A stretch of DNA of 64,000 nucleotides from Lachnospiraceae bacterium (GCA_021199235.1 JAJQIL010000030.1:35296-99295), one strand, 5' to 3'. Shown: positions 43,427 through 61,980, counted from the stretch's first letter. Numbers and translations: made by a program. The notes: generated by a model from the letters alone, not told the origin.

Positions 43427-43535
43427 TCAGAGTTCCTCCAGCACCGCCTGGATTTTACGGAATTCTTCACCAGTGCCCCCGACGATCGCCTGAGAGTCCT
43501 CTCCGGCGACGGGGGCTTTTTCTTTGCGGTATTTT
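43427..43535 (-). pseudogene. Duplicated 3' end (34 codons plus stop) of the AraC gene at 46041-46997
   Basis: About 94% identical to 46041-46149; encodes the same YRKEKAPVAGEDSQAIVGGTGEEFRKIQAVLEEL*; 6 differences in sense codons, all synonymous; stop TGA vs TAG. Confidence 0.93.
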
Positions 43536-43666
43536 CTGTAAATATACTTCGTGGTATTTAAGGATATTAATTATATCAAATACAAAGATAATAAAATTAA
43601 GATAAGAAATACTTGAAGTTTTTTGGTATTTATAGTACCATATTTGCATCAGAAGTTTGAATATTT

Positions 43667-43801
43667 GTAACTATTCAGGACAGTACCTCGCACTTGCTGC
43701 GAGGTACGTATGAAAGTATACAGCATGTGGGGAAAAGCCCCATCGCGAAGCGATTTTAAATGGGCTTTTCACTCGTAACTGTGAAGGTACTGAACAGTTA
43801 C
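43667..43801. repeat. Composite multi-hairpin element upstream of the XRE operon
   Basis: GTACCTCGCA-cttgc-TGCGAGGTAC; GAAAAGCCC...GGGCTTTTC; ends with the 27-bp GTAACTGTGAAGGTACTGAACAGTTAC palindrome. Confidence 0.6.
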
Positions 43802-43838
43802 GAATATTTAATCAGGAAATGTCAAGGAGTGAATCATA

Positions 43839-44186
43839 ATGAAACATTTGTCTCAGGAAAAACTGGCAGAAGTGGTAAAAAATCTAAGAAAGAAAAAGAA
43901 CCTGACACAGGAGCAGCTAAGTGAAACTACAGGTATCAACAGGCAGATGATCGGCAGACTTGAGAATAAAGAATACATGCCTTCCATCCTTCAATTGGAA
44001 AAGCTGGCTCATGTATTGGATTTTGATATTTCTGATCTATATGCTGATACGGAACCTCTGGTATATACAGCATTTCGCAGCTCGGGCATGTCCGAGGAAG
44101 AAAAAAACGGAATCGATCATATGCTTGAGATGATGATAGCCTCCAGACAACAGATACTTTTAAGAAAGGCGATGCTGCATGAATAA
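43839..44186 (+). CDS. XRE-family HTH regulator / antitoxin-like
   Basis: LRKKKNLTQEQLSETTGINRQMIGRLENKEYMPSILQLEKLAHVLDF. Confidence 0.9.
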   Translation: MKHLSQEKLAEVVKNLRKKKNLTQEQLSETTGINRQMIGRLENKEYMPSILQLEKLAHVLDFDISDLYADTEPLVYTAFRSSGMSEEEKNGIDHMLEMMIASRQQILLRKAMLHE

Positions 44187-45213
44187 AAAAAAATCTGTCA
44201 CTTTAAACGAACAACAGATATTTGAGGTGAAAAGGCTGGCATCTGAGACGAGGCAACTTTTCGGCGTTTTTCCTAATGTTCCGATAGGAAGTGATATTCG
44301 GCTGCTCTTGGAAAAGAAAGGTATTCTTTTGTGTGAATATCCTTATCCAGATGAAGGAGGAACGCACGCATATGGAAATATTATCTGGTTTAAAAATGAT
44401 AATATTACATTTATTGGACTAAATACCTCCAGCTATTATGATGAGCAGATATTTGCAATAGCTCATGAGCTTTATCATTATACGACTCAGACAGGGAAAG
44501 CATATACACCTGAACTTGAACTGGAGGATGCAACGACAGAAAAAGAGGCAGACAGGTTTGCTGCGGAATTATTACTTCCGGAGGAGGCTTTGAAAAATGC
44601 GGTCGCAGATTTTTGCGCGTTTTCTGTTAGTTGGTATTATCAGGATTCGGCCGGATATGGATATCCGGTGGAAGTCCTTTTGGATTCGGCCGAATCAAAG
44701 CACAAACGTATCCTTGCGTATGCGGAAGCACTTAGTAATCGGCAGAAACGACAGATTTCAGGACACTCTGAACGACGATTGTCAGGTTATGATATGTATG
44801 CGGTTCCTGACAATAGAATTCTCAGATTTATTGCAAGGATACAATGCGATTGGTGGCTCCCATATCAGGCTATTGTAAATAGATTATTCGAAGAGAAAAT
44901 CATAAATGAGTCTCAGTATAGCAGACTGTATAAAATTGATTGTCGTGCGGAGGATGGCTTATACAGGAGAATACTCAGGAATATTGACAGTGAAATGGCG
45001 GCATTATTGAATAAAAAAACAAAGACAGTGGGTATTTCTGGCAAAGTGATTGAGACAATTATTGATAACTATGAGGATGGGCTGATTGATGAAGACGAGT
45101 TTGTTGAGATGTTGTTTTTGTTTGAAAAAAAACCTGAAGATTTCGGCTTTAAAATAGAGGCGGAAACAGATGACGATCTCAAAGATTTGTGTGAAAGCGG
45201 TGATGATGAATGA
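44179..45213 (+). CDS. ImmA/IrrE family metallo-endopeptidase
   Basis: AHELYHYTTQTG HExxH motif, EKEADRFAAELLLPEEAL; overlaps XRE gene. Confidence 0.9.
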   Translation: MNKKKSVTLNEQQIFEVKRLASETRQLFGVFPNVPIGSDIRLLLEKKGILLCEYPYPDEGGTHAYGNIIWFKNDNITFIGLNTSSYYDEQIFAIAHELYHYTTQTGKAYTPELELEDATTEKEADRFAAELLLPEEALKNAVADFCAFSVSWYYQDSAGYGYPVEVLLDSAESKHKRILAYAEALSNRQKRQISGHSERRLSGYDMYAVPDNRILRFIARIQCDWWLPYQAIVNRLFEEKIINESQYSRLYKIDCRAEDGLYRRILRNIDSEMAALLNKKTKTVGISGKVIETIIDNYEDGLIDEDEFVEMLFLFEKKPEDFGFKIEAETDDDLKDLCESGDDE

Positions 45214-45938
45214 AAGTAGATATCCGGAAGGTGAATCCGGCTTTCCAGAGTATAATGCGGGCTTCTGATCAGCCGATTTTTCTGGATGCAAATTTTTTCA
45301 TCCCGCCGGATCGAAGCAGTTATAAAGGTGTAAAGGCTTATTCCTTTGAACAGTTTAAAGAAAGCTGGATTGAGCCATTGTTAAGCGAATTTCCAGGATT
45401 AGCTGTTCATGAATCCGTTTATGATGAACTGGTTGCCGGTAAGGTGAGAGCATATGTTAACGCGCAGTGTATCTCTGATCCTGAACGGCTTAAGATCCAT
45501 TATGATGCGGAATTAAATGAAACTGAAACGGCGTTATTGAATTATTACATAAACAAAATAGCGGTACATTCGCTGTATGACCCATATATAGATAACGCGA
45601 AAGACAGAGGAGAGGTAAGATCGTTATCTTTTATGGCTGTAAAGCAGTATCTGTATTTTGCTGCGAACGATGCACTGGCAGTTAGGCTGATCAAAGACGC
45701 AGATAAGCTGAAAACCGGGCTTGACGATATGGGTATCTTACAGATGTATGAACTTATTTATTATCTGTATATGATGGGAAAATACAGCAGCAAAGAATTA
45801 CGAACATTGTATAAATATCAGTATTATTTGACAACAGGAGACAAAAGAATAAACCCCGAATGGGGAACATTTGTAAAACAAATGGATATTATTTATAGAA
45901 CCGATAATCAGAACACTTTCCAGACCCAGTCCGCATAA
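45210..45938 (+). CDS. PIN-like nuclease/toxin-candidate protein
   Basis: QPIFLDANFFIPP N-terminal PIN-like Asp motif, ANDALAVRLI; ATGA overlap with ImmA/IrrE gene. Confidence 0.6.
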   Translation: MKVDIRKVNPAFQSIMRASDQPIFLDANFFIPPDRSSYKGVKAYSFEQFKESWIEPLLSEFPGLAVHESVYDELVAGKVRAYVNAQCISDPERLKIHYDAELNETETALLNYYINKIAVHSLYDPYIDNAKDRGEVRSLSFMAVKQYLYFAANDALAVRLIKDADKLKTGLDDMGILQMYELIYYLYMMGKYSSKELRTLYKYQYYLTTGDKRINPEWGTFVKQMDIIYRTDNQNTFQTQSA

Positions 45939-46040: not shown

Positions 46041-46997
46041 CTAGAGTTCCTCCAGTACAGCCTGGATCTTACGGAACTCTTCACCAGTGCCCCCGACAAT
46101 CGCCTGAGAGTCTTCTCCGGCGACGGGGGCTTTTTCTTTGCGGTATTCTTTGGGCGTGCAGCCCTTGATCTCTTTGAATTTACGGATAAAATAGCTGAAA
46201 TTCTCAAAGCCCGTCTCGAACGCGACGTCCATCACAGGCAGATCGGTGGTCTTCAAAAGGATGCAGGCCTGGTCGATCCGGTAATGGTTGATATACTGCG
46301 TGAAACTCACGAGGAACGTTTTTGCAAAAAAAGAGCTGAAATACTTCGGGGACATATGCATGATTTCCGCGCCCTGTTCTAATGAGATGTGCTCCTGGTA
46401 ATGGGCGGAGATGTAGTCCGTCAGCTCCCGGATGCGGATGGTGGTCTGCGTATGGTTGACCGGGATGGCTGAATTTACGGGGACGAAGAGCTGGTTCGAC
46501 TCCAGCAGGAGCAGGATTTTGTACAGCTGGATCTTGATCATCAGGCGGTAGCTGTCCGGCTGCATCACGTAAATCTGTTTGATGGTAAGCAGATCCCGAA
46601 GCAGGATTTTGTGGCAGCTCTGCCCGGAGGAGACTTTCAGCGGGAATCCCAGTTTATCTTTCAGAGGATTCAGTATCGTATGCTGGACATAGTCGGTCTG
46701 TTTGAAATCCAGCCATTCCGGATCAAAGACAAAGGAAAAATACGAGCTGTTTTGCTGCTCGAGAACGAGCTGATGTACCTGTCTGGGATTGATAAAGAAC
46801 ACATCACCGGCATGTCCGACGTGCGTTTCGCCCTCCACCATAAGCACCAGTTCGCCCTGATTCACACAGATGATCTCAATCTGCCGGTGCCAGTGATAGT
46901 TTACTACAAAACGGTTGGATTCCGCCTGCGCGCCATAGCATTCAAAGGGGAAATAATCTGTGCCGTGGCTTTTCTTTTCCTCCAGATTCGTCGCCAT
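46041..46997 (-). CDS. AraC-family transcriptional regulator
   Basis: FVVNYHWHRQIEIICVNQGELVLMVEGE cupin; MSPKYFSSFFAKTFLVSFTQYINHYRIDQACILLKTTDLPVMDVAFETGFENFSYFIRKFKEIKGCTPKEYRK. Confidence 0.93.
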   Translation of the reverse strand: MATNLEEKKSHGTDYFPFECYGAQAESNRFVVNYHWHRQIEIICVNQGELVLMVEGETHVGHAGDVFFINPRQVHQLVLEQQNSSYFSFVFDPEWLDFKQTDYVQHTILNPLKDKLGFPLKVSSGQSCHKILLRDLLTIKQIYVMQPDSYRLMIKIQLYKILLLLESNQLFVPVNSAIPVNHTQTTIRIRELTDYISAHYQEHISLEQGAEIMHMSPKYFSSFFAKTFLVSFTQYINHYRIDQACILLKTTDLPVMDVAFETGFENFSYFIRKFKEIKGCTPKEYRKEKAPVAGEDSQAIVGGTGEEFRKIQAVLEEL

Positions 46998-47368
46998 AGT
47001 CTTCTCCTTTCTGGATTTTGTGTTATTTTTTCTGTATATAAAACAAGAAATCTGTACTTTTCTCTGGTATGATGTCACCATAAGATCATGAGCGAAAAAC
47101 AGTGATGGAACAAAAGGAATTACGCGATTTCAAGGGATTATCATAGAAATTCCGAGAAAAACGCATGAAAAATGGTAATATTTAACTGAAAAATGTCAAA
47201 AAACGCGTAATACATACAAAATACCGACATTTTTCATAAAATATGAACGATGCACTGCAGAACGGAATTCCGGCATTCGGTCATATAAAAATGTGGAAAT
47301 ACTTCACTGCTTTTGTCTTATGATTATACACGAAAAAGAACAGTAATTCAATCAGAAGGAGAGCTATC

Positions 47369-48747: not shown

Positions 48748-49629
48748 ATGAAAAAAAATACTACCTCATATAAAGTATCGCAGTTTCTCATGTTTGCCGG
48801 ACCGGCAACGATACTTTTTGCAGCAGTAGTACTTCTCCCGTTTGTCTATGGTCTGTATCTGACCTTTACAAGCTGGGACGGTGTATCGAAAACAAAGCCT
48901 TTTGTGGGGCTGGAAAACTATATCAAGGCGTTCAGTGATTCCGCATACTGGGCGGCTCTCGGCAGGACTGCGGTATACACGGTCATCGCGGTCGTGCTGG
49001 TCAACGTCGTGGCGTTCCTTCTCGCTTATCTGGTGACGAGCGGCATCAAAGGACAGAATTTTTTCCGCGCCGGATTTTTCATCCCGAACCTGATCGGCGG
49101 TATCGTACTTGGTTATGTATGGAAATTCGTATTTAACCGTGCGCTGGTAGCGCTTGGGAAATCCCTTTCCATCGGTGCGCTTTCCACCAGCTGGCTGGCC
49201 ACCACCGGGGGCGCGATGCTCTGCCTGATCATCGTGTCCGTATGGCAGTATGCCGGCTATATGATGCTGATCTATGTGGCAGGATTTATGAGCGTGTCAA
49301 AAAGCCTGATGGAGGCGGCTGAGATTGATGGCTGCACCAAGTCTCAGGCAATGAAAAACGTCACGATTCCGCTGATGCGCTCTTCGTTTGTACAGTGCAT
49401 TTTCCTGACACTGACACGGTGCTTTATGGTATACGATGTGAACCTTTCTCTGACCAACGGTGAACCGTTCAACAGCTCCGTGCTCGCGGCAATGCACGTA
49501 TACAATCAGGCATTTACCTATAAGAACTATGGTACCGGCCAGGCGGAGGCACTGATCCTGTTCGTAATCTGTGCGGTCGTAGGCGTGACGCAGGTATATA
49601 TCGGTAAGAAAGGGGAGGTGGAAGCATAA
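48748..49629 (+). CDS. Sugar ABC transporter permease
   Basis: LMEAAEIDGCTKSQAMKNVTIPLMRSSF EAA motif. Confidence 0.93.
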   Translation: MKKNTTSYKVSQFLMFAGPATILFAAVVLLPFVYGLYLTFTSWDGVSKTKPFVGLENYIKAFSDSAYWAALGRTAVYTVIAVVLVNVVAFLLAYLVTSGIKGQNFFRAGFFIPNLIGGIVLGYVWKFVFNRALVALGKSLSIGALSTSWLATTGGAMLCLIIVSVWQYAGYMMLIYVAGFMSVSKSLMEAAEIDGCTKSQAMKNVTIPLMRSSFVQCIFLTLTRCFMVYDVNLSLTNGEPFNSSVLAAMHVYNQAFTYKNYGTGQAEALILFVICAVVGVTQVYIGKKGEVEA

Positions 49630-50489
49630 TGGACGCAAATGCAAAAGCAGCGCGCAAGAAAAAAGTAACGAACGTGATCCTCTGGGTCGTGCTTCTGCTC
49701 CTTTTTATCGCATTTATCTTTCCGTTCCTGCTGGTTTTGATCAACGTATTTAAGACAAAGGCGGATATCACCATGTCGCCGCTCGCTTTGATCGGTTCGC
49801 ATGGCTTTACGCTGGAGAACTTCCCGAACGCCATGAAGAAGATGAACTTCTGGGTAGCGTTCAGGAACTCGCTGATCATTACCTGCAGCGCAACGGTTCT
49901 GACTATCCTGTGCTCCGCGATGGCGGCGTTTGTCATCGTCCGGAACAAGTGGAAAGCATGCAGCCTGCTGTTTACCGGCATGGTCGCTTCCATGGTCATC
50001 CCGTTCCAGGTGCTGATGATCCCGCTCGTATCTCTCTACGGCGGTATCTTCGGAGTCCTGAACAGCCGTGTCACATTGATACTGATGCACACCGGCTTCT
50101 CCGTATCCATGGCGACCTTTATGTTCCACGGCGCAATTCACACGAACATTCCGCTGGAACTGGAAGAGGCGGCGCTGATGGATGGCTGCACAAGATGGCA
50201 GACATTCTGGAAAATCGTATTTCCGCTGCTGAAACCGACGGTCGCAACCGTAGCGATCATTGACGCGATGGCATTCTGGAATGACTACCTGCTTCCGAGC
50301 CTGGTGCTTGGCCGCAAGGAGCTGTATACCATACCGATCGCAACCCAGGTATTCTACGGAACCTATTCCACGGATATGGGCATGGTGATGGCGGCTCTGC
50401 TGCTGGCAATGCTGCCGATCCTGATCTTATATCTGTTCCTTCAGCGCTACATCGTCGAGGGTGTTACATCCGGTGCAGTGAAAGGCTGA
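49629..50489 (+). CDS. Carbohydrate ABC transporter permease
   Basis: LEEAALMDGCTRWQTFWKIVFPLLKPTVAT EAA motif. Confidence 0.93.
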   Translation: MDANAKAARKKKVTNVILWVVLLLLFIAFIFPFLLVLINVFKTKADITMSPLALIGSHGFTLENFPNAMKKMNFWVAFRNSLIITCSATVLTILCSAMAAFVIVRNKWKACSLLFTGMVASMVIPFQVLMIPLVSLYGGIFGVLNSRVTLILMHTGFSVSMATFMFHGAIHTNIPLELEEAALMDGCTRWQTFWKIVFPLLKPTVATVAIIDAMAFWNDYLLPSLVLGRKELYTIPIATQVFYGTYSTDMGMVMAALLLAMLPILILYLFLQRYIVEGVTSGAVKG

Positions 50490-50506
50490 TAAATGACTGC
50501 AACATG

Positions 50507-50551
50507 TGGCGCGGTGGGATCATTCATACGTCCCCACTGCGCCATTTTTAT
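50507..50551 (+). terminator. Terminator-like hairpin between permease and GH32
   Basis: TGGCGCgGTGGG...CCCACtGCGCCATTTTT. Confidence 0.75.
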
Positions 50552-50574
50552 AATAAAATTGATGGAGATCGTTT

Positions 50575-52317
50575 ATGACTTATTCGACAGACCTGCGTGT
50601 TCCGTATCTGGGGCTTCCGGTAAAGACGGGACAGAAGAGAACAACTCTTGAAATTTTTGCGGATAATGAAAAAATACTGGAACTGGAGATCGCGGATCTG
50701 CAGGGAGATTTCTGTGACTATTACTGCTGGCTGCGGCTTCCGGAATGTATCGGGAAGACGCTCACGCTGAAAGGGAAGCTGTCAGATGCCTTTTTTGCGC
50801 TGGTACAGCAGACGGAGCACTATGATTATGAGCCGATTACCCGTCCGCTGCTGCATTTCACTGCCGAGAGAGGCTGGCTGAATGACCCGAATGGCATGGT
50901 TTATCAGGATGGCGTGTACCACCTTTATTTTCAGTACAATCCGGCGGATTCCGAATGGGGAAATATGTCCTGGGGACACGCCGAAAGCACAGACCTGTTG
51001 CATTTTCGGCAGGCAGATACGGTCCTGCTGCCGGACGAAAACGGACCGGCTTTTTCAGGAAGCGGTCTTGTGAATGAGCGGGGGCTTCTGGGGCTGCCCA
51101 AAGACGCGCTGGTTTTCTATTATACAGCTGCGGGCGGCCTGAATCCCTGGAGTCGAAATGTATCTTCTGGTACCGCCTCGGCTGTGAAGAATGCGGCGGC
51201 AGAAGGAGCTACATCGCAGACGGTGGAAGATGCGGCGGCAGAAGCAGCTATATCGCAGACTGTGGAAAATGCGGTAGAATCGACGTTTACACAGCGGATT
51301 GCGGTAAGTACGGACGGCGGACAGACACTGAATAAGCTGCCAAAGGAGGCTGTGGGCGTCATCGCTCCGGAATCGAGAGATCCGCAGGTGTTCTGGCATG
51401 AGGCCTCCGGCGCGTACGTGATGGCGCTCTGGATCGAGGGCGAGGAGATGGCTGTTTTGCGCTCGGACGACCTGCAGAATTGGGAGATGACGGATCGATT
51501 CACGCTGCCGGGAGCCTTTGAGTGTCCGAACCTGTTCTGCCTGCCGGTGCCGGAGGAAGACGATGCGACATCTTCTGACAGAGATCTGCCGGTAAAGCCG
51601 TCGGAGGCGTACGGGATGCAGTGGATCCTGCTCGCGGCGGACGGTTCTTATTATTTCGGGGATTTTGACGGGTATCGGTTTGTCTCGGATGGAGTGCGGC
51701 GGAAAGTGTATCTGAATGAGCTGCCTTATGCCGCACAGATTTATAACGGAATATCGGATCGTAAGGTGTTGGTCCCCTGGCTGCGTACGAGGAACGAAGG
51801 AAGGCTTTATACGGGATCAATGGGGCTGCCGCGGGAACTGGGGCTGCTTCGAAAAAATGGAGAACTGCTTCTTGAGATGCTTCCGGTGCGGGAATACGAG
51901 AAAGCAAAAAAGAAGCTGGCATCCTTCGCGATGATCCACGAAAAAACATTTTTGACAGCGCCGGAGGGAAAGTTCCCATTTGAAGCAAAGTCAGACCGGA
52001 TTTCGTTTGAAATAACAGAAGAGGCCGTGACGGAGCTCGTGCTGATGCCTGGAAAAGAGGGAAAGCTGCGGATAGATTTCTTCGGGCAGACTCTGACGGT
52101 GGAGGAGGATAGACTGTGCCTGAGCGGCGCCGAAGAACAGACGGTATTGCCGGAAGTATTTGCGGAACTGCACCTCCTGATCGACCGGCAGATTATTGAG
52201 GTTTATGGAAATGAGGGTACGCTGACTGCTTACTATGAGACCGGCTCGGATACCCTGACAGGGAAGATTGCCATAAGCGGATTTTCCGGGACTCTGGATG
52301 TGTATCAATGGAAATAA
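50575..52317 (+). CDS. GH32 beta-fructosidase (sucrose/fructan hydrolase)
   Basis: FTAERGWLNDPNGMVYQDGVYHLYFQYNP, ESRDPQVFW, FECPNLF. Confidence 0.93.
   Translation: MTYSTDLRVPYLGLPVKTGQKRTTLEIFADNEKILELEIADLQGDFCDYYCWLRLPECIGKTLTLKGKLSDAFFALVQQTEHYDYEPITRPLLHFTAERGWLNDPNGMVYQDGVYHLYFQYNPADSEWGNMSWGHAESTDLLHFRQADTVLLPDENGPAFSGSGLVNERGLLGLPKDALVFYYTAAGGLNPWSRNVSSGTASAVKNAAAEGATSQTVEDAAAEAAISQTVENAVESTFTQRIAVSTDGGQTLNKLPKEAVGVIAPESRDPQVFWHEASGAYVMALWIEGEEMAVLRSDDLQNWEMTDRFTLPGAFECPNLFCLPVPEEDDATSSDRDLPVKPSEAYGMQWILLAADGSYYFGDFDGYRFVSDGVRRKVYLNELPYAAQIYNGISDRKVLVPWLRTRNEGRLYTGSMGLPRELGLLRKNGELLLEMLPVREYEKAKKKLASFAMIHEKTFLTAPEGKFPFEAKSDRISFEITEEAVTELVLMPGKEGKLRIDFFGQTLTVEEDRLCLSGAEEQTVLPEVFAELHLLIDRQIIEVYGNEGTLTAYYETGSDTLTGKIAISGFSGTLDVYQWK
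51193..51270 (+). repeat. 39-bp in-frame tandem duplication inside GH32 catalytic domain
   Basis: AAAEGATSQTVED / AAAEAAISQTVEN. Confidence 0.85.
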
Positions 52318-52417
52318 CAGTGCCTTTAAGCGGTAACCCGTAACTGTGAAGGTGCTGAACAGTTGCAATGCGAGGTAATAAGCACGAAGAATGTAATGGT
52401 ACTTAGGGAGAAAGGCA

Positions 52418-54463
52418 ATGAAAAATGGAGAAAATAAAACGAAAGCTGCAGAAGTCGCGACAAGGACGAGGACAATAACGGAAAGGACGCCTGGAACGCC
52501 CTCCAGATCTTCGGCCGGAAACGCGAAAATGACGAGAACCTTGCCGAGATCACGAAAAAGAGCAGGGACTTCAGTGAGGACGCAGAATCGGGCAAATATA
52601 AAGGAGACAGAAAAACCATCAAAAGAATTTGATTCAGATGTTCTTTTTGAGCAGCGTCTTGCCAGACACATGGATGAATTAAAGTGGCTGTACATGGAGC
52701 TGTACAGCAACGGTTCCATGTTCGCAGAACTGTGTGAGCAGATGCACCGTTTTTACGAGGAGCGAAGAACACCGCTGAAAAAGCTGGATGAGAAGCGTGA
52801 GAGCGATCCGAACTGGTATCGGCAGAATGATATGCTGGGCATGATGTTTTATATCGACAATTTTGCGGGCGATATGCAGGGAGTAGAGAAAAAGCTGGAC
52901 TATATCGAGAACTGCGGAGTGAATTATATTCACCTGATGCCGTTTCTGGATACGCCGAAGGGACGCAGCGACGGCGGGTACGCGGTGTCGGATTTCCGGA
53001 AGGTGCAGGAGAAGCTGGGGACGATGGAAGATCTGGATGCGCTGACGGACGACTGCCACAGGCGGGGCATCAATATCTGCATGGATTTTGTCATGAACCA
53101 CACTTCGGAGGATCATGAATGGGCAAAGCGAGCACGTGCGGGCGAAGGAGAGTACATGAGCCGGTACTTTTTCTTTGACAATGCCGCGATCCCTTCGCTT
53201 TTTGAAAAGACGGTACCGCAGGTCTTTCCGACGACCGCCCCGGGGAATTTCACCTGGCTCCCCGACATCGGACACTATGTGATGACGACCTTTTATCCGT
53301 ACCAGTGGGATTTGAATTATCGGAATCCTCGGGTGTTCAATGAGATGATGTACAATTTCCTGTATCTGGCCAATCAGGGTATCGATATCATCCGCATTGA
53401 CGCCGTGCCTTATATATGGAAAGAGCTGGGGACTAACTGCCGGAATCTCCGTCAGGTACATACGATCGTGCGCATGATGCGCATGATCTCCGAGATCGTC
53501 TGCCCGGGCGTGCTGCTTCTGGGCGAGGTGGTGATGGAACCGGAAAAGGTGGTGCCTTACTTTGGCACCGTGGAAAAGCCGGAATGCCATATGCTCTACA
53601 ACGTGACGACGATGGCGACCACCTGGCATACAGTGGCGACGCGGGATGTGAGCCTTTTGAAAAAGCAGCTGGATATTGTGAGCTCGCTTCCGAAAGACTA
53701 TACCTTTTTGAATTATCTGCGCTGCCACGACGATATCGGCTGGGGACTGGACTACGGCTTCCTTGCGCAGCAGGGCTTTGACGAGCGTACCCATAAGCAG
53801 TATTTGAACGACTATTTTGAGGGAAAGACCGGCGCGAGCAACAGCCGCGGCGAGCTGTACAACGCTGACCCCGTGACGGGTGATGCGCGTTTTTGCGGGA
53901 CGACCGCTTCCATGTGCGGCATCGAAAAAGCCGGATTCGAGCAGGATGAGGCGGCGATGGAGAAAGCAATCCAGCTGGATATCATGCTCCATGCCTATAT
54001 GTTCATGCAGTCGGGAATTCCCGTCCTGTACGGTGGCGATGAGATTGGACAGGTGAACGACTATTCCTACAAAGAAGATCCGGAAAAAGCGCCGGACTCC
54101 CGCTACATCCACCGCGGCATGATGCGCTGGGATCTGGCGGAGCGGATCAGCGATCCGGATTCTGTAGAGGGAAAAGTGTTCCGCCGGCTGAAAGAGCTGG
54201 AAGATATCCGAAAGAAAGAGAAAGTATTTGTATCCAATGCGGATACCTGGACGGTGGAGACATGGGAAAACAGTGTTCTCTGCATCGGCAGATATTATGA
54301 CGGCGACAAGCTGCTGGGACTCTTTAATTTCAGCGAGTACGACAAGACCGCCTGGATCAACGAGACAGACGGACTGTACCGGGATCTGCTGAGCGGGCGT
54401 GCCATGAAAGCCGCGGGAGTCGATATTCCGGCGTATGGGTTTTTCTATCTGAAGAAAATTTAA
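52418..54463 (+). CDS. GH13 alpha-amylase family (amylosucrase-like)
   Basis: HMDELKWLYMELYSN, GVNYIHLMPFL, DFVMNHTSEDHEWA, GIDIIRIDAVPYIWK, LLGEVV, CHDDIGWG. N-terminal about 70 aa doubtful. Confidence 0.85.
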   Translation: MKNGENKTKAAEVATRTRTITERTPGTPSRSSAGNAKMTRTLPRSRKRAGTSVRTQNRANIKETEKPSKEFDSDVLFEQRLARHMDELKWLYMELYSNGSMFAELCEQMHRFYEERRTPLKKLDEKRESDPNWYRQNDMLGMMFYIDNFAGDMQGVEKKLDYIENCGVNYIHLMPFLDTPKGRSDGGYAVSDFRKVQEKLGTMEDLDALTDDCHRRGINICMDFVMNHTSEDHEWAKRARAGEGEYMSRYFFFDNAAIPSLFEKTVPQVFPTTAPGNFTWLPDIGHYVMTTFYPYQWDLNYRNPRVFNEMMYNFLYLANQGIDIIRIDAVPYIWKELGTNCRNLRQVHTIVRMMRMISEIVCPGVLLLGEVVMEPEKVVPYFGTVEKPECHMLYNVTTMATTWHTVATRDVSLLKKQLDIVSSLPKDYTFLNYLRCHDDIGWGLDYGFLAQQGFDERTHKQYLNDYFEGKTGASNSRGELYNADPVTGDARFCGTTASMCGIEKAGFEQDEAAMEKAIQLDIMLHAYMFMQSGIPVLYGGDEIGQVNDYSYKEDPEKAPDSRYIHRGMMRWDLAERISDPDSVEGKVFRRLKELEDIRKKEKVFVSNADTWTVETWENSVLCIGRYYDGDKLLGLFNFSEYDKTAWINETDGLYRDLLSGRAMKAAGVDIPAYGFFYLKKI

Positions 54464-54484
54464 ATAACAGTTCAGAGCTGTATC
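54434..54484 (+). repeat. Direct repeat, copy 1: 3' end of the GH13 gene
   Basis: 51 bp, 49/51 identical to 56761-56811. Confidence 0.92.
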
Positions 54485-54541
54485 TCAGGCGACTCGCTGT
54501 CCTGAATATCTAAGCGATGTCTTTCTTTGAATCTGCTGAAA

Positions 54542-54578
54542 CGAAAAGCCCCGGAGGTGTGATGCCTCCGGGGCTTTT
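54542..54578. terminator. Terminator after GH13
   Basis: AAAAGCCCCGGAGGtgtgatgCCTCCGGGGCTTTT. Confidence 0.92.
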
Positions 54579-54580
54579 GT

Positions 54581-54628
54581 ATCGATTAATATTGGCATAA
54601 CAGGCCCTCCTGGAAATTATTTTCGTAC
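54581..54628 (-). pseudogene. Remnant of GH36 gene start (RBS, ATG and about 6 codons)
   Basis: 44/48 identical to 59240-59287, the 5' end of the intact GH36 gene; minus strand AGGAGGgcctgttATGCCAATATTAATCGAT. Confidence 0.85.
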
Positions 54629-54790
54629 TGAGAAGATTCATATCAAATAAAACGCAATGGATATAACTGATTATAATAGAATATTTTGACGGAAAATTTG
54701 GATAATATAATGAAACGAAAAAAATATTTGCGTTTTATCCCAAAAAGTATATAATAAAAGTGCCTCGATGAAAGGAAGGGTGAAGATACC

Positions 54791-56074
54791 ATGAAACTGA
54801 TTCGTGTAAAAATTGAAGGCTTTCGCAATATTGAAGAAGACGAAATTATTCTGGGGAATGAGATTACCTCTCTTGTTTCAGAAAACAGTTATGGGAAATC
54901 TAATTTAATGGAAGGCATTGATTTTGCTGTTTCTTTTATTTCTGCAACTCCAGCTGAGAAGTCCTATATGATGGGTTGGAAGCGAGGAATCCCGCTTAAT
55001 AAAAAAACAGAGAATCATGATTTTAAAGCAAATTTTATTTTTGAGACAGAGTTTCAGGATGAATCATATGAAATCAATTATGGTTTCTCTTTTACCTGGA
55101 TTAAAAATGATGGCGGGAAAAAAATCCAGAATGAGTGGTTAAATGCGCGCAGACTGGGAATTGCCAGAAAGTATATTAAATTGATCAGCCGCGATGAACG
55201 GGCATTATTTAAGTCTTCTCCGACAGGCCGATGCAGCAGTGTCGTAAGGATAGCCGATGAGGAACTGATTCTTAATAAGCTGCTCAATTTCGATGATTTA
55301 TATTATATGCCGATTATTGAAGAATTGAATCATATCAGTGTATATGTAGAACGTCATCTTGACGCTTCTTTTTCTTATACGAAAAATCCTCTGGTAATGA
55401 AAAACAGCGACCAGTCGATTTTACTGGATTTTACTGATATACCGAGGGTGATTTATCAGCTTAAGAAAAAGCATAATGATAAGTATGAAGTCCTTAAGGA
55501 CGCATTCATGCAGTTATTCCCGAATATTACAAATATTACGGTACAGGAGTTTGATATAAGTCGGAATCACGGCATAAAAATTGACATTGATGCTCCATAT
55601 ACCATTTCGGATAAGGTATACTCTATATTCGTACAGGATAAGAATCTTAACCAGCCGTTGGATTTTAGCGGTATGTCTGATGGGGCGAAAAGAGTTTTTC
55701 TGATGCTGACATTTGCTGTTGTAGCAAATATTGAGAAGATGACATTGATTGCGTTCGAAGAGCCGGAGAATTCTATTCATCCATCCTTGCTGCAGGGATA
55801 TCTGCGAGTACTGACGCAGCTTGCCGGTGACTGTAAGATCATCGTTGCAAGTCATTCGCCCTATATTATTGAATATGTGTCCACAGAGGATATTTATATT
55901 GGCAAGCCAAATCCGTATGGACTTGCGGATTTCTCCAAAATAGACGCAAAGAAAGTGAATCGATTAGAACGTGATGCCATGAACGACAGTGTATCTGTAG
56001 GCAGCTATATTTTTGAATTGCTTTCTGGCGGAGAAGATGAGCTTGATATTCTAAACACATATCTGGAGAAATAA
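54791..56074 (+). CDS. AAA (RloA/OLD-like) ATPase of a two-gene defence-like module
   Basis: LIRVKIEGFRNIEEDEIILGNEITSLVSENSYGKSNLMEGIDF divergent Walker A; FSGMSDGAKRVFLMLTFAVV signature; LIAFEEPENSIHPSLLQGYLRVL Walker B; ASHSPYII. Confidence 0.85.
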   Translation: MKLIRVKIEGFRNIEEDEIILGNEITSLVSENSYGKSNLMEGIDFAVSFISATPAEKSYMMGWKRGIPLNKKTENHDFKANFIFETEFQDESYEINYGFSFTWIKNDGGKKIQNEWLNARRLGIARKYIKLISRDERALFKSSPTGRCSSVVRIADEELILNKLLNFDDLYYMPIIEELNHISVYVERHLDASFSYTKNPLVMKNSDQSILLDFTDIPRVIYQLKKKHNDKYEVLKDAFMQLFPNITNITVQEFDISRNHGIKIDIDAPYTISDKVYSIFVQDKNLNQPLDFSGMSDGAKRVFLMLTFAVVANIEKMTLIAFEEPENSIHPSLLQGYLRVLTQLAGDCKIIVASHSPYIIEYVSTEDIYIGKPNPYGLADFSKIDAKKVNRLERDAMNDSVSVGSYIFELLSGGEDELDILNTYLEK

Positions 56075-56078
56075 AAGT

Positions 56079-56717
56079 ATGGCAAAAAAGAATAACGGCA
56101 GTGCCGATAAAAAAACAATTCTCGTAATATTTATTGAGGGAGACACTGAGGTGGATTTTTATAATAAGATGGTTGCATCTATTAGAGAAAAGGTGGGGCA
56201 GCCTTCCTGTACCGTAAAAATTAAAAATGTAAAAGGTGTCGGAAATTACCAAAACAGAGCGTGCCGGATTTTTGAAAATGGCATCAAAAAGAAGTATCCA
56301 GGCTATCGGTATGTAGTTGCCCTTTGTTATGACACGGATGTGTTTCTATACAGCAGGAAACCACCGGTGGACTGGGATGCTGTTACGAAAGCGTTGAAAG
56401 AAAAAGGAGCGGATCAGGTGAATCTTGTACGTGCCGAAAAATCTATTGAAGACTGGTTTTTGTTCGACATGGATGGGCTGAGAAGATTTTTGAAAATTTC
56501 ACTGAAGACGAAGCTCCCGGCCTATAAAGGACAAAAAGGGCTGGAGCAGCTGTTTTTAAAAGCAAACAAGACCTACATTAAAGGTGTCCAGTGTAAAGGA
56601 CTGGTTGATGCATTGGATATGGAAAAAATTTTCCCGCATATCTGTAGGGAAATACGAACCATCTGTAATACGATGGGAGTAAATTGCAGTACAGATAATG
56701 AACGCTGCAATGGCTGA
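56079..56717 (+). CDS. TOPRIM/RloB-like nuclease-candidate partner protein
   Basis: TILVIFIEGDTEVDFYNKM (EGxTE TOPRIM-like), VVALCYDTDVF (DxD); 4 bp downstream of the ATPase gene. Confidence 0.7.
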   Translation: MAKKNNGSADKKTILVIFIEGDTEVDFYNKMVASIREKVGQPSCTVKIKNVKGVGNYQNRACRIFENGIKKKYPGYRYVVALCYDTDVFLYSRKPPVDWDAVTKALKEKGADQVNLVRAEKSIEDWFLFDMDGLRRFLKISLKTKLPAYKGQKGLEQLFLKANKTYIKGVQCKGLVDALDMEKIFPHICREIRTICNTMGVNCSTDNERCNG

Positions 56718-56760
56718 TGCTGGCGAAAAATTGTCGGAAATCAGAGAAAATGAAGCGCTG

Positions 56761-56811
56761 TATGGGTTTTTCTATCTGAAAAAAATTTAAATAACAATTC
56801 AGAGCTGTATC
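56761..56811 (+). repeat. Direct repeat, copy 2: detached 3' end of the GH13 gene
   Basis: tatgggtttttctatctgaaaaaaatttaaataacaattcagagctgtatc; encodes YGFFYLKKI* like copy 1. Confidence 0.92.
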
Positions 56812-56819
56812 GAAACAAA

Positions 56820-56850
56820 CAACCCCGAAGGTGTGATGCCTCCGGGGTTT
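56820..56850. terminator. Second copy of GH13 terminator, before GH36
   Basis: AACCCCGAAGGtgtgatgCCTCCGGGGTTT. Confidence 0.88.
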
Positions 56851-56860
56851 GATTTGTTTT

Positions 56861-59257
56861 TCATACACGTGAAAGATACACCTGCCATGCCTGATACTCA
56901 CCGTTCATCCAGGGAACCGGTAGCCCGGCAGCCATCAGAGCATTTCCCGGAACCAGCGTTTGTTCATCTTCAAGTACCTTGTTCCCGGCACTTCGTTCGC
57001 CGCGCCCATTGCGGGTACTCATCGCTTCGGTGAGGCGGTACCAGCCATTCGGATCCAGCCCGCGCAGCTTTACGTATTCGACCGGTGAGTTGCAGTGCGC
57101 ACCGGTCCTGATCAGATTCAGAAGCGCCTCCGCACCATCCTCAGAAGAGAATTCCCAGGCGGTATATTCCTCGTTTTCCATCGGGCTTGACAGTCGGAAG
57201 TAGCGCCCCTCACGGATCAGATCGCTGTATTTTATATAATCCCGGATCTGACGGCGGACGATTTCTTTTTCTTCTTCTGAGACCAGATTCAGGTCAAGCT
57301 CATAACCGAAGGTACCGGCCATCGCCACGACGCCGCGCGTCACAATGTCCGTGCGCCGGCCTGTCTGGTGATTCGGCACTGCGGATACGTGGGAGCCGAC
57401 CGCAGAGATCGGATAGCCAAAGGAAGTCCCGTACTGGATGCGCAGCCGTTCGATGGCGTCCGTATTGTCACTGCACCAGATCTGCGGCGTGTAATACAGC
57501 ATTCCCGTGTCAAAGCGTCCGCCTCCTCCGGCACAGCCTTCGATCAGAAGCTCCGGGAAACGCGTTTGCAGCCGTTCCAGAAAATCATAGACGCCCAGCA
57601 CATAGCGATGCAGGGTCGCCCCCTGGTTCTGTTCGCGGGCTGTCAGCGAATAGATATCGGAGAGATGGCGGTTCATGTCCATCTTTATATAGGAAACATT
57701 CGCTGCAGAAATAACCACACAGATCTGTTCCAGAATATGGTCAACAACTTCTTTTCTGGAAAAATCAAGCACGAGCTGATCTCTGCCGCGCACCGGCTTT
57801 CTTCCGGGGATGACAAAAGCCCAGTCCGGGTGCGCGCGGTACAGGTCGCTGTCCTCCGATACCATCTCCGGCTCGATCCAGAGGCCGAATTTCATGCCCA
57901 GCGCATTCACCTGCTCTGAGACTGCTTTCAGAGTAGAACCCAGCTTTTCTTCATTCACATACCAGTCGCCGAGTCCGCTGTTATCCGAGTCGCGTTTTCC
58001 GAACCAGCCGTCGTCCAGCACGAGCATTTCCACGCCCAGTTCCGACGCCTGTTTCGCGATCCGCACCAGCTTGTCCGCATCAAAATCAAAATACGCCGCC
58101 TCCCAGCTGTTGATCAGCACCGGGCGCCTGCGGTCTCTCCAGTATCCACGGCACAAGTGGCGGCGGATCAGACGATGGTATTCCTCTGAGAGCGTCCCAA
58201 ACCCGGCGTCGCTGCAGCAAAGTGCCGCTTCCGGCGTGTCAAAGGTCTCTCCCGGCATAAGCTTCCAGGAAAACAGCTCATCCGAAATGCCCAGCAGCGC
58301 GCGCGTCTGCTTATACTGATCGACAGAAGCCTCTCCCTTAAAATTGCCGCTGTACAAAAGCTGGAAGCCATAGCAGTCTCCGTTTGTCTCCCCGGCATCT
58401 TTGGACGCCAGGATAAAGAATGGATTCTGCTGATGACTGGACGCTCCGCGGCGGCTCTGCAGGATCTGCTCGGCGTGCGAAAGAGGCGTGCGTGAAAACT
58501 GCCGCTCCATCCCATGTCTTCCGTGAAAGTGGATCAGGTCAAATTCCCCATACAGAAAATCAAGGCAGCAGCTGGCCGCTTTTTCCACATATACAGTGTC
58601 GGCTCCGGTGTTCCGAATCCGGGCTGCGCGCGTGATCACATCGCTGTCTGAAAGTATCCCGTAGAGCAGGGTCACTTCGACGCCGGACGCCTTATCCTCC
58701 AATATAACCTCGAGGGTCTGTGCTGGCGGCTGAGCAGGCTTCTTTTGCCCGCCATTATCCGCTTCCGGGCAGTCTTTGCAACAGCATTCGTCTGCGTTGG
58801 CCTCCGCTGCCGCTTCGCGCGGGACGTCGTTGTAGATGGCCGGCATCCCGGGAATGCTGTATTTTTCCTCCAGTACGCGTGCGGATTTGTAGCGCAGGTC
58901 GCAGCTGGCAGTACCATCTGCATTTCGGATCTGCAGCGCAGTGCTGCGGTAGTCGCCGGTGCCGAAACAGGGGTATTCCTGCGGCAGCGCATCCATTGAG
59001 TAAGTGCGGTCTGTCCCGGCGTCATACGGATTACCGGAAAAACCGCGGTCATAGAAGGTCAGAAGATAGCGCAGATCCGGGGCATTTTCACTGGCTTCAA
59101 CGCCGGAATCGCAGGAGTCCGGTGCATCATGGAGAGCGAGTTTCTTCCCATAGTAAAGGTGCAGAAGGTGCCCATATTTCCCCACTGTCATCTGGTATGT
59201 GGTATGCTTTGTGTGAATAGTAAAAAGCCTGCGTGTCTCATCGATGAATATTGGCAT
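56861..59257 (-). CDS. Alpha-galactosidase, GH36 family (second paralogue)
   Basis: LVLDDGWFGKRDSDNSGLGDW, LWIEPEMVSEDSDLYRAHPDW, YIKMDMNRH, EGCAGGGGRFDTGMLYYTPQIWCSDNTDAIERL. Confidence 0.95.
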   Translation of the reverse strand: MPIFIDETRRLFTIHTKHTTYQMTVGKYGHLLHLYYGKKLALHDAPDSCDSGVEASENAPDLRYLLTFYDRGFSGNPYDAGTDRTYSMDALPQEYPCFGTGDYRSTALQIRNADGTASCDLRYKSARVLEEKYSIPGMPAIYNDVPREAAAEANADECCCKDCPEADNGGQKKPAQPPAQTLEVILEDKASGVEVTLLYGILSDSDVITRAARIRNTGADTVYVEKAASCCLDFLYGEFDLIHFHGRHGMERQFSRTPLSHAEQILQSRRGASSHQQNPFFILASKDAGETNGDCYGFQLLYSGNFKGEASVDQYKQTRALLGISDELFSWKLMPGETFDTPEAALCCSDAGFGTLSEEYHRLIRRHLCRGYWRDRRRPVLINSWEAAYFDFDADKLVRIAKQASELGVEMLVLDDGWFGKRDSDNSGLGDWYVNEEKLGSTLKAVSEQVNALGMKFGLWIEPEMVSEDSDLYRAHPDWAFVIPGRKPVRGRDQLVLDFSRKEVVDHILEQICVVISAANVSYIKMDMNRHLSDIYSLTAREQNQGATLHRYVLGVYDFLERLQTRFPELLIEGCAGGGGRFDTGMLYYTPQIWCSDNTDAIERLRIQYGTSFGYPISAVGSHVSAVPNHQTGRRTDIVTRGVVAMAGTFGYELDLNLVSEEEKEIVRRQIRDYIKYSDLIREGRYFRLSSPMENEEYTAWEFSSEDGAEALLNLIRTGAHCNSPVEYVKLRGLDPNGWYRLTEAMSTRNGRGERSAGNKVLEDEQTLVPGNALMAAGLPVPWMNGEYQAWQVYLSRV

Positions 59258-59363
59258 AACAGATCCTCCCGGAAATTATTTTCGTACGGATTATACATGG
59301 CTGTTCTGCTCTTTTCAAGTAAAATATTTGCAGCTGATGAGGCTGCATTTCCGTGCTGAATGA

Positions 59364-60254
59364 CTATATGCCGGATTTTGCAGACTTCCTGTGTTCCCCG
59401 GGCGTGCAGCCGAAGCGCCTGCGGAACAGTTTATTAAAATAAGAAATGTTGTGGAAACCATTATCCAGTGCGATCTCCGTCACGGAAAGATCGGTTTCCT
59501 CCAGCGCGGCCGCCGCCTTTGTCAGGCGGAAACGATTGATGTATTCGACGCAGGTCATGCCGGTATACCGGCGAAAAAAATTCATGAAATATGTTTCACT
59601 GAAATGACAGACTTTGGAAAGCTCCTGTATGGTAAGGGGATCCCGGTAATGTTCCTGAATATAACCCAGAATTCCTTTAAGCTTTTCTTCTGTATGCCGA
59701 CTGCTGCTGTTGAGGTCGGCTTTTTCGATATAGCCCAATCGGTACAGATCTGCTAAAAGTGTTAGCAGGAGCGCTTTTGTCTGAAGCTCATATGCGGATT
59801 CTTTTTTCTGAAAGATATGGCATAAATCAAGAAAACATTTTTTAAGCTCCGGATAGCCTGGCTGATCCGGATGAATGACCGGCACGAAACGATGCTTTCC
59901 GGTCAAAAGCGGATTCAGATATTTGACAGTGCAGATATCCGGTGTCAGTCCGCCCGGATAATTCAGGTGAAAGACCAGGCTCTGCGAGGCCATGGTGCAG
60001 CCTGGTTCCTCACTGGCGCCATGCAGGACATGCGGGGAAATGAAAAGCAGGTCGCCGGCCTGTACCCGGAAAGGTGTAAAATGAATCGTGTAGTTGGCAG
60101 ATCCATTTTCAATGTAGGTAATCTCCGCTTCCTCATGCCAGTGAAGCTCAAGATTGCGGTAACTTTCCAGTATGCGGCAATAATAATATTCCACCGGAAG
60201 CAGAGCGCTTCCATGTGTGGTTTTTTCCTGATAATCCGGAATCTGTTTTTCCAT
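59364..60254 (-). CDS. AraC-family transcriptional regulator
   Basis: LELHWHEEAEITYIENGSANYTIHFTPF; LSKVCHFSETYFMNFFRRYTGMTCVEYINRFRLTKAAAALEETDLSVTEIALDNGFHNISYFNKLFRRRFGCTPGEHRK. Confidence 0.94.
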   Translation of the reverse strand: MEKQIPDYQEKTTHGSALLPVEYYYCRILESYRNLELHWHEEAEITYIENGSANYTIHFTPFRVQAGDLLFISPHVLHGASEEPGCTMASQSLVFHLNYPGGLTPDICTVKYLNPLLTGKHRFVPVIHPDQPGYPELKKCFLDLCHIFQKKESAYELQTKALLLTLLADLYRLGYIEKADLNSSSRHTEEKLKGILGYIQEHYRDPLTIQELSKVCHFSETYFMNFFRRYTGMTCVEYINRFRLTKAAAALEETDLSVTEIALDNGFHNISYFNKLFRRRFGCTPGEHRKSAKSGI

Positions 60255-60441
60255 GATACAGGCGTCCTCCCGTTCCACAAATACCATAGGATTGTGTTAA
60301 TACTGCGTAATATTCTGCAAGAAATTCTGCAAGCATTATAGTATAATTCTATCATAAATGCCACTGTTCTTTTCGGACTTTTTCAGGAGGAAGAGCTCCG
60401 GCGGCGGAAACACGTATTGGAAAAAACGGGAGGATAAAAGA

Positions 60442-61980
60442 ATGCCAGGATGGTTAAAAAACGCAGTGTTTTATGAGATTTATCCGCAGTCATTTTACGA
60501 CACCAACGGAGACGGGATCGGAGATTTTAACGGTATCATTGAAAAACTGGATTACATCAGGGAACTGGGATGCAATGCCCTGTGGATCAATCCGTGTTTC
60601 GATTCTCCGTTTAAAGATGCGGGGTACGATGTGCGTGACTATAAAAAGGTTGCTCCAAGATACGGAACAAATGACGATCTGTATCGTCTTTTTGAAGAGG
60701 CGCACAAAAAGGGAATTCATATTCTGCTGGATCTGGTTCCCGGACATACCTCGGAAGAACATCCGTGGTTCAGGGAGAGTCAGAAGGCAGAAAACAACGA
60801 ATATACGAACCGCTATGTATGGACTGACCATCCTTTTGCACCGATCAAAGGGTATCCGTATATCGGCGGAGAGAGTGAGAGAGGCGGAGTATATCTGCTG
60901 AATTTCTTTAAGTGTCAGCCGGCGCTGAACTATGGATTCCTGAATTGCGAGGAAAAGTGGCAGCTTCCGCCGGACCATCCGGACTGCATTGCTACCAGAG
61001 AAGCGATGAAAGATGTGATGCGTTTCTGGCTGGACCACGGGTGCGACGGATTCCGTGTGGATATGGCTGCGTCCCTCGTGAAAAATGACGATGAGGCAAA
61101 ATCCGGTACCTGTGCTCTCTGGAGAAATATCCGGGAAATGCTGGATGAGGAATATCCGGAGGCGGCGATGGTTTCTGAGTGGGGAGATCCGGTAAAAGCG
61201 CTGAATTCGGCCGGATTCCACATGGATTTTTATCTCAACAGACGCGGCAACGGGTATAATACGCTGATGCGGGATTATGAGACCGGGGAGGACAACAGCT
61301 TTTTCAAAAAGGACGGGAAAGGGGACATTACCCGTTTCCTGAACGAGTATCTGCCGGATTATGCTGCTACAAAAGAACATGGATATTATTGTATGCTGAC
61401 CTGCAATCATGATACGCTCCGGCCAAAATACAATCTGGACGACAGGGAACTGAAGCTCGCCTATGCATTCCTGTTTACAATGCCGGGTGTCCCGTATCTC
61501 TATTATGGCGATGAGATTGGTATGCGTTACCAGGAGCTGCCGACAAAGGAAGGCGGGTATCATCGCACCGGGTCACGTACGCCGATGCAGTGGAATGCTG
61601 AAAAGAATGCAGGTTTCTCTGACGGCTCGGCGGAAGATCTCTATCTTCCTGTGGATCTTTCCGCAGGTGCTCCTGATGTGGCTGCGCAGGAAATGGATGC
61701 AAATTCACTGCTGAATACCGTAAAAGCTCTGCTTCGACTTCGCCAGGAGGAAGAAGACCTGCAGGCGGATGCAGGATTTGAGGTGGTTTATGCGGAAAGC
61801 GGGAAACTGCCTTTTGTGTACCGCAGAGGAAATCTTCTGCTTGCGCTCAACCCGTCTTTGGAAACAGTGACTGCCGCAGCTGATGTGGGAAACAGAACGG
61901 TTCGTTTCTCAATTGGCAAAGGAAATGCGGAGGACGGAATGATTACCATGGAGCCGCAGTCGTTTCTTGTGTTAAAATAA
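60442..61980 (+). CDS. GH13 alpha-glucosidase family (oligo-1,6-glucosidase-like)
   Basis: VFYEIYPQSFYDTNGDGIGDFNGIIEKLDYI, DLVPGHTSEEHPWF, CDGFRVDMAASL, SEWGDP, TCNHDT. Confidence 0.92.
   Translation: MPGWLKNAVFYEIYPQSFYDTNGDGIGDFNGIIEKLDYIRELGCNALWINPCFDSPFKDAGYDVRDYKKVAPRYGTNDDLYRLFEEAHKKGIHILLDLVPGHTSEEHPWFRESQKAENNEYTNRYVWTDHPFAPIKGYPYIGGESERGGVYLLNFFKCQPALNYGFLNCEEKWQLPPDHPDCIATREAMKDVMRFWLDHGCDGFRVDMAASLVKNDDEAKSGTCALWRNIREMLDEEYPEAAMVSEWGDPVKALNSAGFHMDFYLNRRGNGYNTLMRDYETGEDNSFFKKDGKGDITRFLNEYLPDYAATKEHGYYCMLTCNHDTLRPKYNLDDRELKLAYAFLFTMPGVPYLYYGDEIGMRYQELPTKEGGYHRTGSRTPMQWNAEKNAGFSDGSAEDLYLPVDLSAGAPDVAAQEMDANSLLNTVKALLRLRQEEEDLQADAGFEVVYAESGKLPFVYRRGNLLLALNPSLETVTAAADVGNRTVRFSIGKGNAEDGMITMEPQSFLVLK

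Follow-up and report, generated by a model that had tools for sequence, protein, structure and literature searches.

The routes by which small defence modules without mobility genes pass from genome to genome are an open question, raised here by a two-gene module in a 64,000-nt stretch of a Lachnospiraceae bacterium genome (GCA_021199235.1 JAJQIL010000030.1:35296-99295; hereafter the window, with positions counted from its first letter, in genome G000). The genes of an AAA ATPase and an RloB-like protein lie here between two copies of the 3′ end of the upstream GH13 gene (GH13a). We propose, with a probability of roughly 0.6, that a small non-autonomous gene-tail cassette, integrating via the tail it carries, has this pair as its cargo. 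The features concerned are collected in Table 1.

Table 1. Features of the GH13a and AraC1 sites in the window, and cargo found at the spoVAC site of related genomes.
Feature	Position in window, or genome	Strand	Basis or remark
Displaced AraC1 tail	43429..43538	-	identical to G014 native single copy over repeat
Second module: HTH 43839-44186, M78 peptidase 44179-45213, third ORF 45210-45938	43839..45938	+	
AraC1 regulator gene	46041..47081	-	ORF; Pfam
AraC1 tail attached to gene, foreign substitutions	46043..46152	-	
GH13a (GH13 gene, 3′ tail duplicated)	52418..54463	+	ORF; Pfam Alpha-amylase E=2e-50
Attached GH13a tail, copy 1: 31 terminal bp of the gene incl. stop + 21 bp downstream	54433..54484	+	
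Block almost identical to G008, internal deletions aside	54497..56780		right edge 21 bp inside displaced tail
Terminator hairpin, copy 1	54538..54576		repeat search
Relic of GH36 start/AraC2 spacer	54581..54631		90% to 59240-59290
AAA ATPase (AAA_21/AAA_15)	54791..56074	+	Pfam AAA_21 1e-17; best PADLOC matches HEC-01A, AbiLi, AriA
RloB-like protein, EGDTE...DTD motif, putative TOPRIM-type nuclease	56079..56717	+	Pfam RloB; motif read from sequence
Displaced GH13a tail, copy 2	56760..56811	+	repeat search
Terminator, copy 2, adjoining GH36 stop codon	56812..56850		
GH36 alpha-galactosidase, right flank of pair	56861..59257	-	Pfam
In-place copy of GH36-AraC2 region, present also as relic left of pair	59240..59405		
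spoVAC cargo: Septu	G061		
spoVAC cargo: Fic + small upstream ORF	G065, G063		
spoVAC cargo: ArsC-like protein + Fic	G001		
spoVAC cargo: Septu + at least one further ORF	second G001 contig		
spoVAC cargo: AAA+RloB-like pair	G021		

The initial annotation had described the pair as enclosed by two GH13 gene ends, with a 49/51 match at the stop codon and a terminator behind each copy. A repeat search confirmed the enclosure and lengthened the match by one base, to a 52-bp direct repeat over the GH13a stop (50/52, 96%) in which the coding difference, aag/aaa, is indeed synonymous (Lys/Lys). A match of this length and identity is not expected by chance in a 64-kb window, and a whole-genome search recovers the GH13a tail in two copies only, those flanking the pair. 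The terminators agree at 34/39 positions (87%). In copy 1, 53 bp (54485-54537) separate tail and terminator and are missing from copy 2; the GH13a repeat is therefore collinear but gapped, and its coding part comprises 31 bp only. In both G000 and its sister species G008, the two tail copies share lineage-specific bases (GAGCTGTATC / GAGCAGCA), which duplication or conversion inside each lineage would fit as well. The tail pattern has no match in IMG/VR. While both repeats are thus present as described, the picture of two gene ends with terminators is incomplete, as relics of the GH36/AraC2 region are also found at the left border.

The ATPase is of the AAA_15/AAA_21 type seen in PARIS/AbiL/HEC-01-type defence. 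It matches several of these families at similar moderate scores (HEC-01A 3e-25, AbiLi 1e-22, AriA 7e-20), which single out no one family. The RloB-like protein has a weak Pfam RloB match (E=2e-4; 22.1 bits, below the family cut-off of 31.5) and a predicted structure too poor for use (pLDDT 39). As in PARIS (AriAB), AbiL, HEC-01 and OLD-family ATPase/TOPRIM systems, of which PARIS is the best-studied split one (PMC10568477), an AAA_21/AAA_15 ATPase adjoins a small RloB-like protein, yet the pair differs from them in this second protein, which is matched by none of the PADLOC or NCBIfam models. The two-gene module is probably anti-phage, with a split ATPase/TOPRIM-nuclease abortive defence as the predicted type. 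A homologue of the pair occurs in 4/47 congeneric genomes, and none was found in plasmids and phages at 1e-20. G061 has an 89% homologous pair elsewhere in its genome, without gene-tail repeats; near it (L057, G061:C46 14-7574), ORFs judged by eye include a set resembling Tn7-like tnsA/tnsB/tnsC/tniQ.

G008 carries the same pair in the same place. Identity between G000 and G008 amounts to 95.1% over 49399-54631, 99.93% over 54624-56081 (1458 bp) and 96.0% over 56608-61000, and is often ~90% in the remaining syntenic blocks of the contig. The high identity begins near 54497, with 2 differences up to 54631, and extends over 56637-56780 with 0 differences before divergence returns inside the displaced tail; the tail region at 54454-54496 is poorly conserved. 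With these limits, the shared block ends on the right inside one gene-end repeat and begins on the left directly past the other. The 99.9% identity against flanks of 95-96%, combined with the sparse distribution among congeners, supports the view that the pair behaves as an acquired unit. In G008 (L033 ~13198-13200), the RloB-like gene has lost most of its length by an internal deletion (window 56082-56607 missing), and the ATPase protein is 100% identical.

The relic at the left border covers the start codons of GH36 together with the spacer between GH36 and AraC2. In G008 it is longer and runs to the AraC2 3′ tail, after which the module starts; in G000, 113 bp have been lost between two CGTAC motifs. 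The relic shares 86% identity with the in-place copy of either genome, while these two copies share 97%; the relic therefore either predates the G000/G008 split or is foreign. Its presence implies that the 52-bp repeat is the visible part of a longer duplicated or imported stretch, and under the gene-tail cassette model an extra event is needed to explain it.

The initial annotation had proposed to look in relatives for the amylase-terminator-GH36 junction without the pair. No empty junction was found among them; in the nearest relatives the locus is rearranged, with GH13b at this place in G014 and G001 and an inverted GH36 in G021. The polarity of attached and displaced tail at GH13a is accordingly putative. 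It is because GH13a has no empty-site relative that our confidence goes no higher than the value given above. Across 52418-61980, the order and orientation of GH13a, GH13b, GH36 and AraC2 differ among G000, G014/G001 and G021. An apparent AraC2 3′ remnant, read from the sequence, lies between GH13a and GH13b in G014/G001, and a truncated HigBA toxin-antitoxin look-alike was seen by eye beside the GH36 3′ end in G033 (L040 ~9400-9900), in the slot of the pair.

The same arrangement had also been claimed for 43.4-46.1 kb, and here clean empty sites do exist. AraC1 3′-end copies (105-110 bp, 93-94%) surround the HTH/M78 module, and both G008 and G014 have one AraC1 tail copy and no module. The M78 peptidase and the third ORF have PDC-M69B and PDC-M69C as best PADLOC matches. 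Beyond G000, the M78 protein is matched in a single congeneric genome, where the match is split in two. The displaced AraC1 tail, beside livF, is followed by the native spacer. Of the 14 positions where G000 deviates from both relatives, 6 lie in the attached tail, within the last 73 of 1041 bp, against ~0.6 expected from the rest-of-gene rate (Poisson ~4e-5), and the post-stop spacer, TAGTAAAACACCAATTGAAAAA, is that of G028. These substitutions, the spacer and the match of the displaced copy to G014 together demonstrate that the AraC1 gene has a foreign tail and that its native tail is displaced. A drop in divergence similar to that at spoVAC (see below) also appears at AraC1 when G001 is compared with G000/G008/G014. 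Upstream of the HTH gene, 43656-43802 belongs to a dispersed repeat (MITE or REP-like), of which G014, G027 and G033 have similar stretches. Possible toxin-antitoxin remnants lie downstream of AraC1 in G063 (L147) and G027 (L038), HicB-like and, by eye, PanA/SocA-like; they suggest that the end of AraC1, too, may be a hotspot.

Further modules bounded by gene-end duplications, another search that the initial annotation had recommended, were found in relatives at the 3′ end of a third gene, spoVAC (TIGR02838). In G021, a distant AAA+RloB-like pair (~31-32% and 27% identity) is located inside a gene-tail repeat of 111 bp at 91%. A genus search revealed partial second spoVAC copies in G021, G061, G063, G065 and G001 (twice), starting at query residue 111/112. 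All six displaced tails share the same start nucleotide, preceded by a ~27-bp motif, TTTTTTGTCCCTAATRGAACSCYRGCA, which is degenerate in G065. The cargo varies (Table 1). In G061 a PtuA ATPase (PADLOC 1.2e-172) is encoded next to a PtuB HNH nuclease (1.3e-69), as is characteristic of Septu; in G027 and G001, Septu was recognised from PtuB and DNA similarity. The Fic proteins match PDC-S04 and PDC-S72. G001 has a tandem array of two units, spread over two contigs. In G031 the Fic cassette has a truncated spoVAC tail, and in G010 the ArsC/Fic cargo is accompanied by a short scar that resembles, by eye, a tail end. No recombinase is present among the ORFs of the spoVAC cassettes examined. Within the genus the motif marks spoVAC sites, with two 3-mismatch matches elsewhere; at up to 2 mismatches it has one occurrence, in an unrelated context, in 397 family genomes. 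In IMG/VR the motif is found on one contig only, in unrelated genes, and the spoVAC tail has no match. The motif is absent from both window sites (GH13a, AraC1). For G021, a comparison with G015 did not distinguish native from foreign tail. Outside the window, G000 itself has a fragment that matches the Septu PtuB protein at 84% identity (G000:C37:123694-123933), and on the same contig (~4.8-12.2 kb, L074) ORF-like motifs recur in the manner of a CRISPR array.

The spoVAC site allows the history of tail and gene body to be separated. Over 252 bp, the first displaced tail of G001 with its spacer agrees at 97.6% with the one attached to spoVAC in G027, and the Septu DNA of both at 99.5% over 2227 bp, whereas the spoVAC bodies reach 74.7%; the tail thus moves together with the cargo. 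In 31 genomes, third-position divergence of spoVAC drops from 0.56 (codons 70-111) to 0.23 (codons 112-150) in 12 species around the carriers, compared to 0.54 and 0.50 for the same codon ranges in the 19 others, and the correlation of body and tail distances is r -0.13 versus 0.63. Since the 12-species group was hand-picked around cassette carriers, this step in divergence may be taken as strong but not blind evidence. In ~1.6 Mb scanned, including G000 contig starts, clean single-copy gene-tail repeats occur at GH13a, AraC1 and spoVAC only; the scan was enriched for these three loci and gives no frequency estimate. In a partial sample of G000 contigs, the candidates for further gene-tail duplications were dispersed repeats or not clean.

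Integration via a carried tail would account for the polarity (foreign tail on the gene, native tail past the cargo), for the intact genes and for the tandem units. The mobile unit would consist of a foreign copy of the 3′ tail of a resident gene, its terminator and then the defence cargo. Upon recombination of the carried tail with the resident tail, the foreign tail would join the resident gene, which stays intact, and the native tail would end up beyond the cargo, giving the direct repeat. An excised circle, by a single crossover, or an exchange with linear donor DNA would produce the observed structure; we infer such a circular or linear intermediate, as well as an enzyme and a vector. No recombinase was seen encoded in the cassette units, and recombination through the tail itself is most likely and the mechanism we prefer. 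GH13a appears to fit this class by its layout and the identity break with G008, and we infer that it belongs with the AraC1 and spoVAC cassettes.

The main alternative is site-specific recombination, in which the gene tails would be att sites for a tyrosine or serine recombinase that an ICE, IME or phage provides in trans, and the cassettes CIME-like decayed or satellite elements accreting in tandem. CIMEs are known to accrete in this way (PMC5704250), the foreign AraC1 tail starts near the duplication boundary, and the spoVAC tail begins at a fixed codon with the ~27-bp motif beside it in unrelated cassettes, as an att core with its arm would. Nevertheless, we consider this explanation rather unlikely: the cassette ORFs examined are free of recombinases, the motif has the single unrelated occurrences mentioned above in the family genomes and IMG/VR, and no core sequence common to the three target genes was seen. 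The fixed spoVAC boundary and motif could be explained either by a recombinase that acts in trans on an att site or by a founding cassette whose end was reused by later cargo.

Still less probable, in our judgment, is a long target duplication of the Kobayashi type, whereby the entry of the pair into the AraC2 3′ end/GH13a region duplicated ~2.6 kb (GH13a tail, terminator, GH36, AraC2 tail) in a single event, and a later deletion of the first GH36 copy left a short repeat on either side. Left of the pair, the order of tail, terminator, GH36 start and, in G008, AraC2 tail is that of such a deleted first copy, the divergence of both stretches is similar (terminator 87%, AraC2-region relic 86%), and insertions of this kind have been reported for restriction-modification genes (Nobusato et al., 2000, as cited in PMC1643837 and PMC3031569). 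However, both copies should then stem from one native target, while the AraC1 copies differ in ancestry, the attached one being foreign and the displaced one native, and at GH36 the lower identity of the relic than of the in-place copies to each other points to an older or foreign origin. That the displaced GH13a tail is a remnant of an old tandem GH13 paralogue, as the initial annotation had considered, or of a local GH13a/GH13b/GH36 rearrangement unrelated to the pair, is suggested by the plasticity of the locus, with GH13b after GH13a in G014 and G001 and GH36 inverted in G021. Yet nothing homologous to GH13 is found upstream of 56760, the neighbouring GH13b has another C-terminus (SFLVLK), the tail is 96% identical though GH13a and GH13b are distant, and the G008-identical block ends within the repeat; moreover, spoVAC tails move with unrelated cargo. 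This reading is already disfavoured and appears very improbable.

Integration via a carried tail, our preferred reading, shares elements with several known systems. CIMEs and accretion at gene ends have been described (PMC5704250), and like CIMEs and accreted ICE/IME islands, where attL and attR are formed from the target gene end, the cassettes have gene-end copies on both sides (the tail direct repeats at GH13a, AraC1 and spoVAC), no integrase of their own and tandem accretion in which the gene end separates the units. They differ in their size of 1.4-2.9 kb, their content of defence or toxin-type genes only, their repeats of 50-126 bp and the ORFs seen, none of which is a conjugation or integrase remnant; as to a partner integrase, the motif was not found in autonomous elements of the family genomes or IMG/VR. 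Long target duplication (Nobusato et al., 2000; Furuta et al., 2010) likewise places defence genes between long chromosomal direct repeats without a recombinase, whereas the AraC1 and spoVAC Septu units have one foreign tail travelling with the cargo, and the spoVAC boundaries are fixed and reused by different cargo. The antiviral hotspots of P2/P4 phages and satellites (PMC9122126) resemble the spoVAC site as a fixed slot for interchangeable small defence modules. At spoVAC, in contrast, the slot lies in the chromosome, at the 3′ end of a sporulation gene whose tail belongs to the moving unit. Tandem units that each start with a homologous tail or a recombination site are also known from Rhs/CDI orphan toxin-tail arrays and integron cassette arrays, but the cassette tail encodes the same conserved C-terminus and no new toxin, and no IntI was seen. 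Among open-access papers, we found no matching arrangement.

In summary, the recurrent layout at three genes points to an unrecognised route for the spread of defence genes. More tentatively, and short of an even chance in our view, there may be a genus-wide traffic of recombinase-free units of gene tail, terminator and defence cargo that insert behind several housekeeping or metabolic genes by recombination via the carried tail, form arrays and leave tail replacements after cassette loss. The use of a host gene tail as a portable integration site seems to spare the gene and to permit tandem stacking. It would also leave a readable scar, with synonymous divergence changing stepwise at a fixed codon, which makes this route testable by sequence in any genus.
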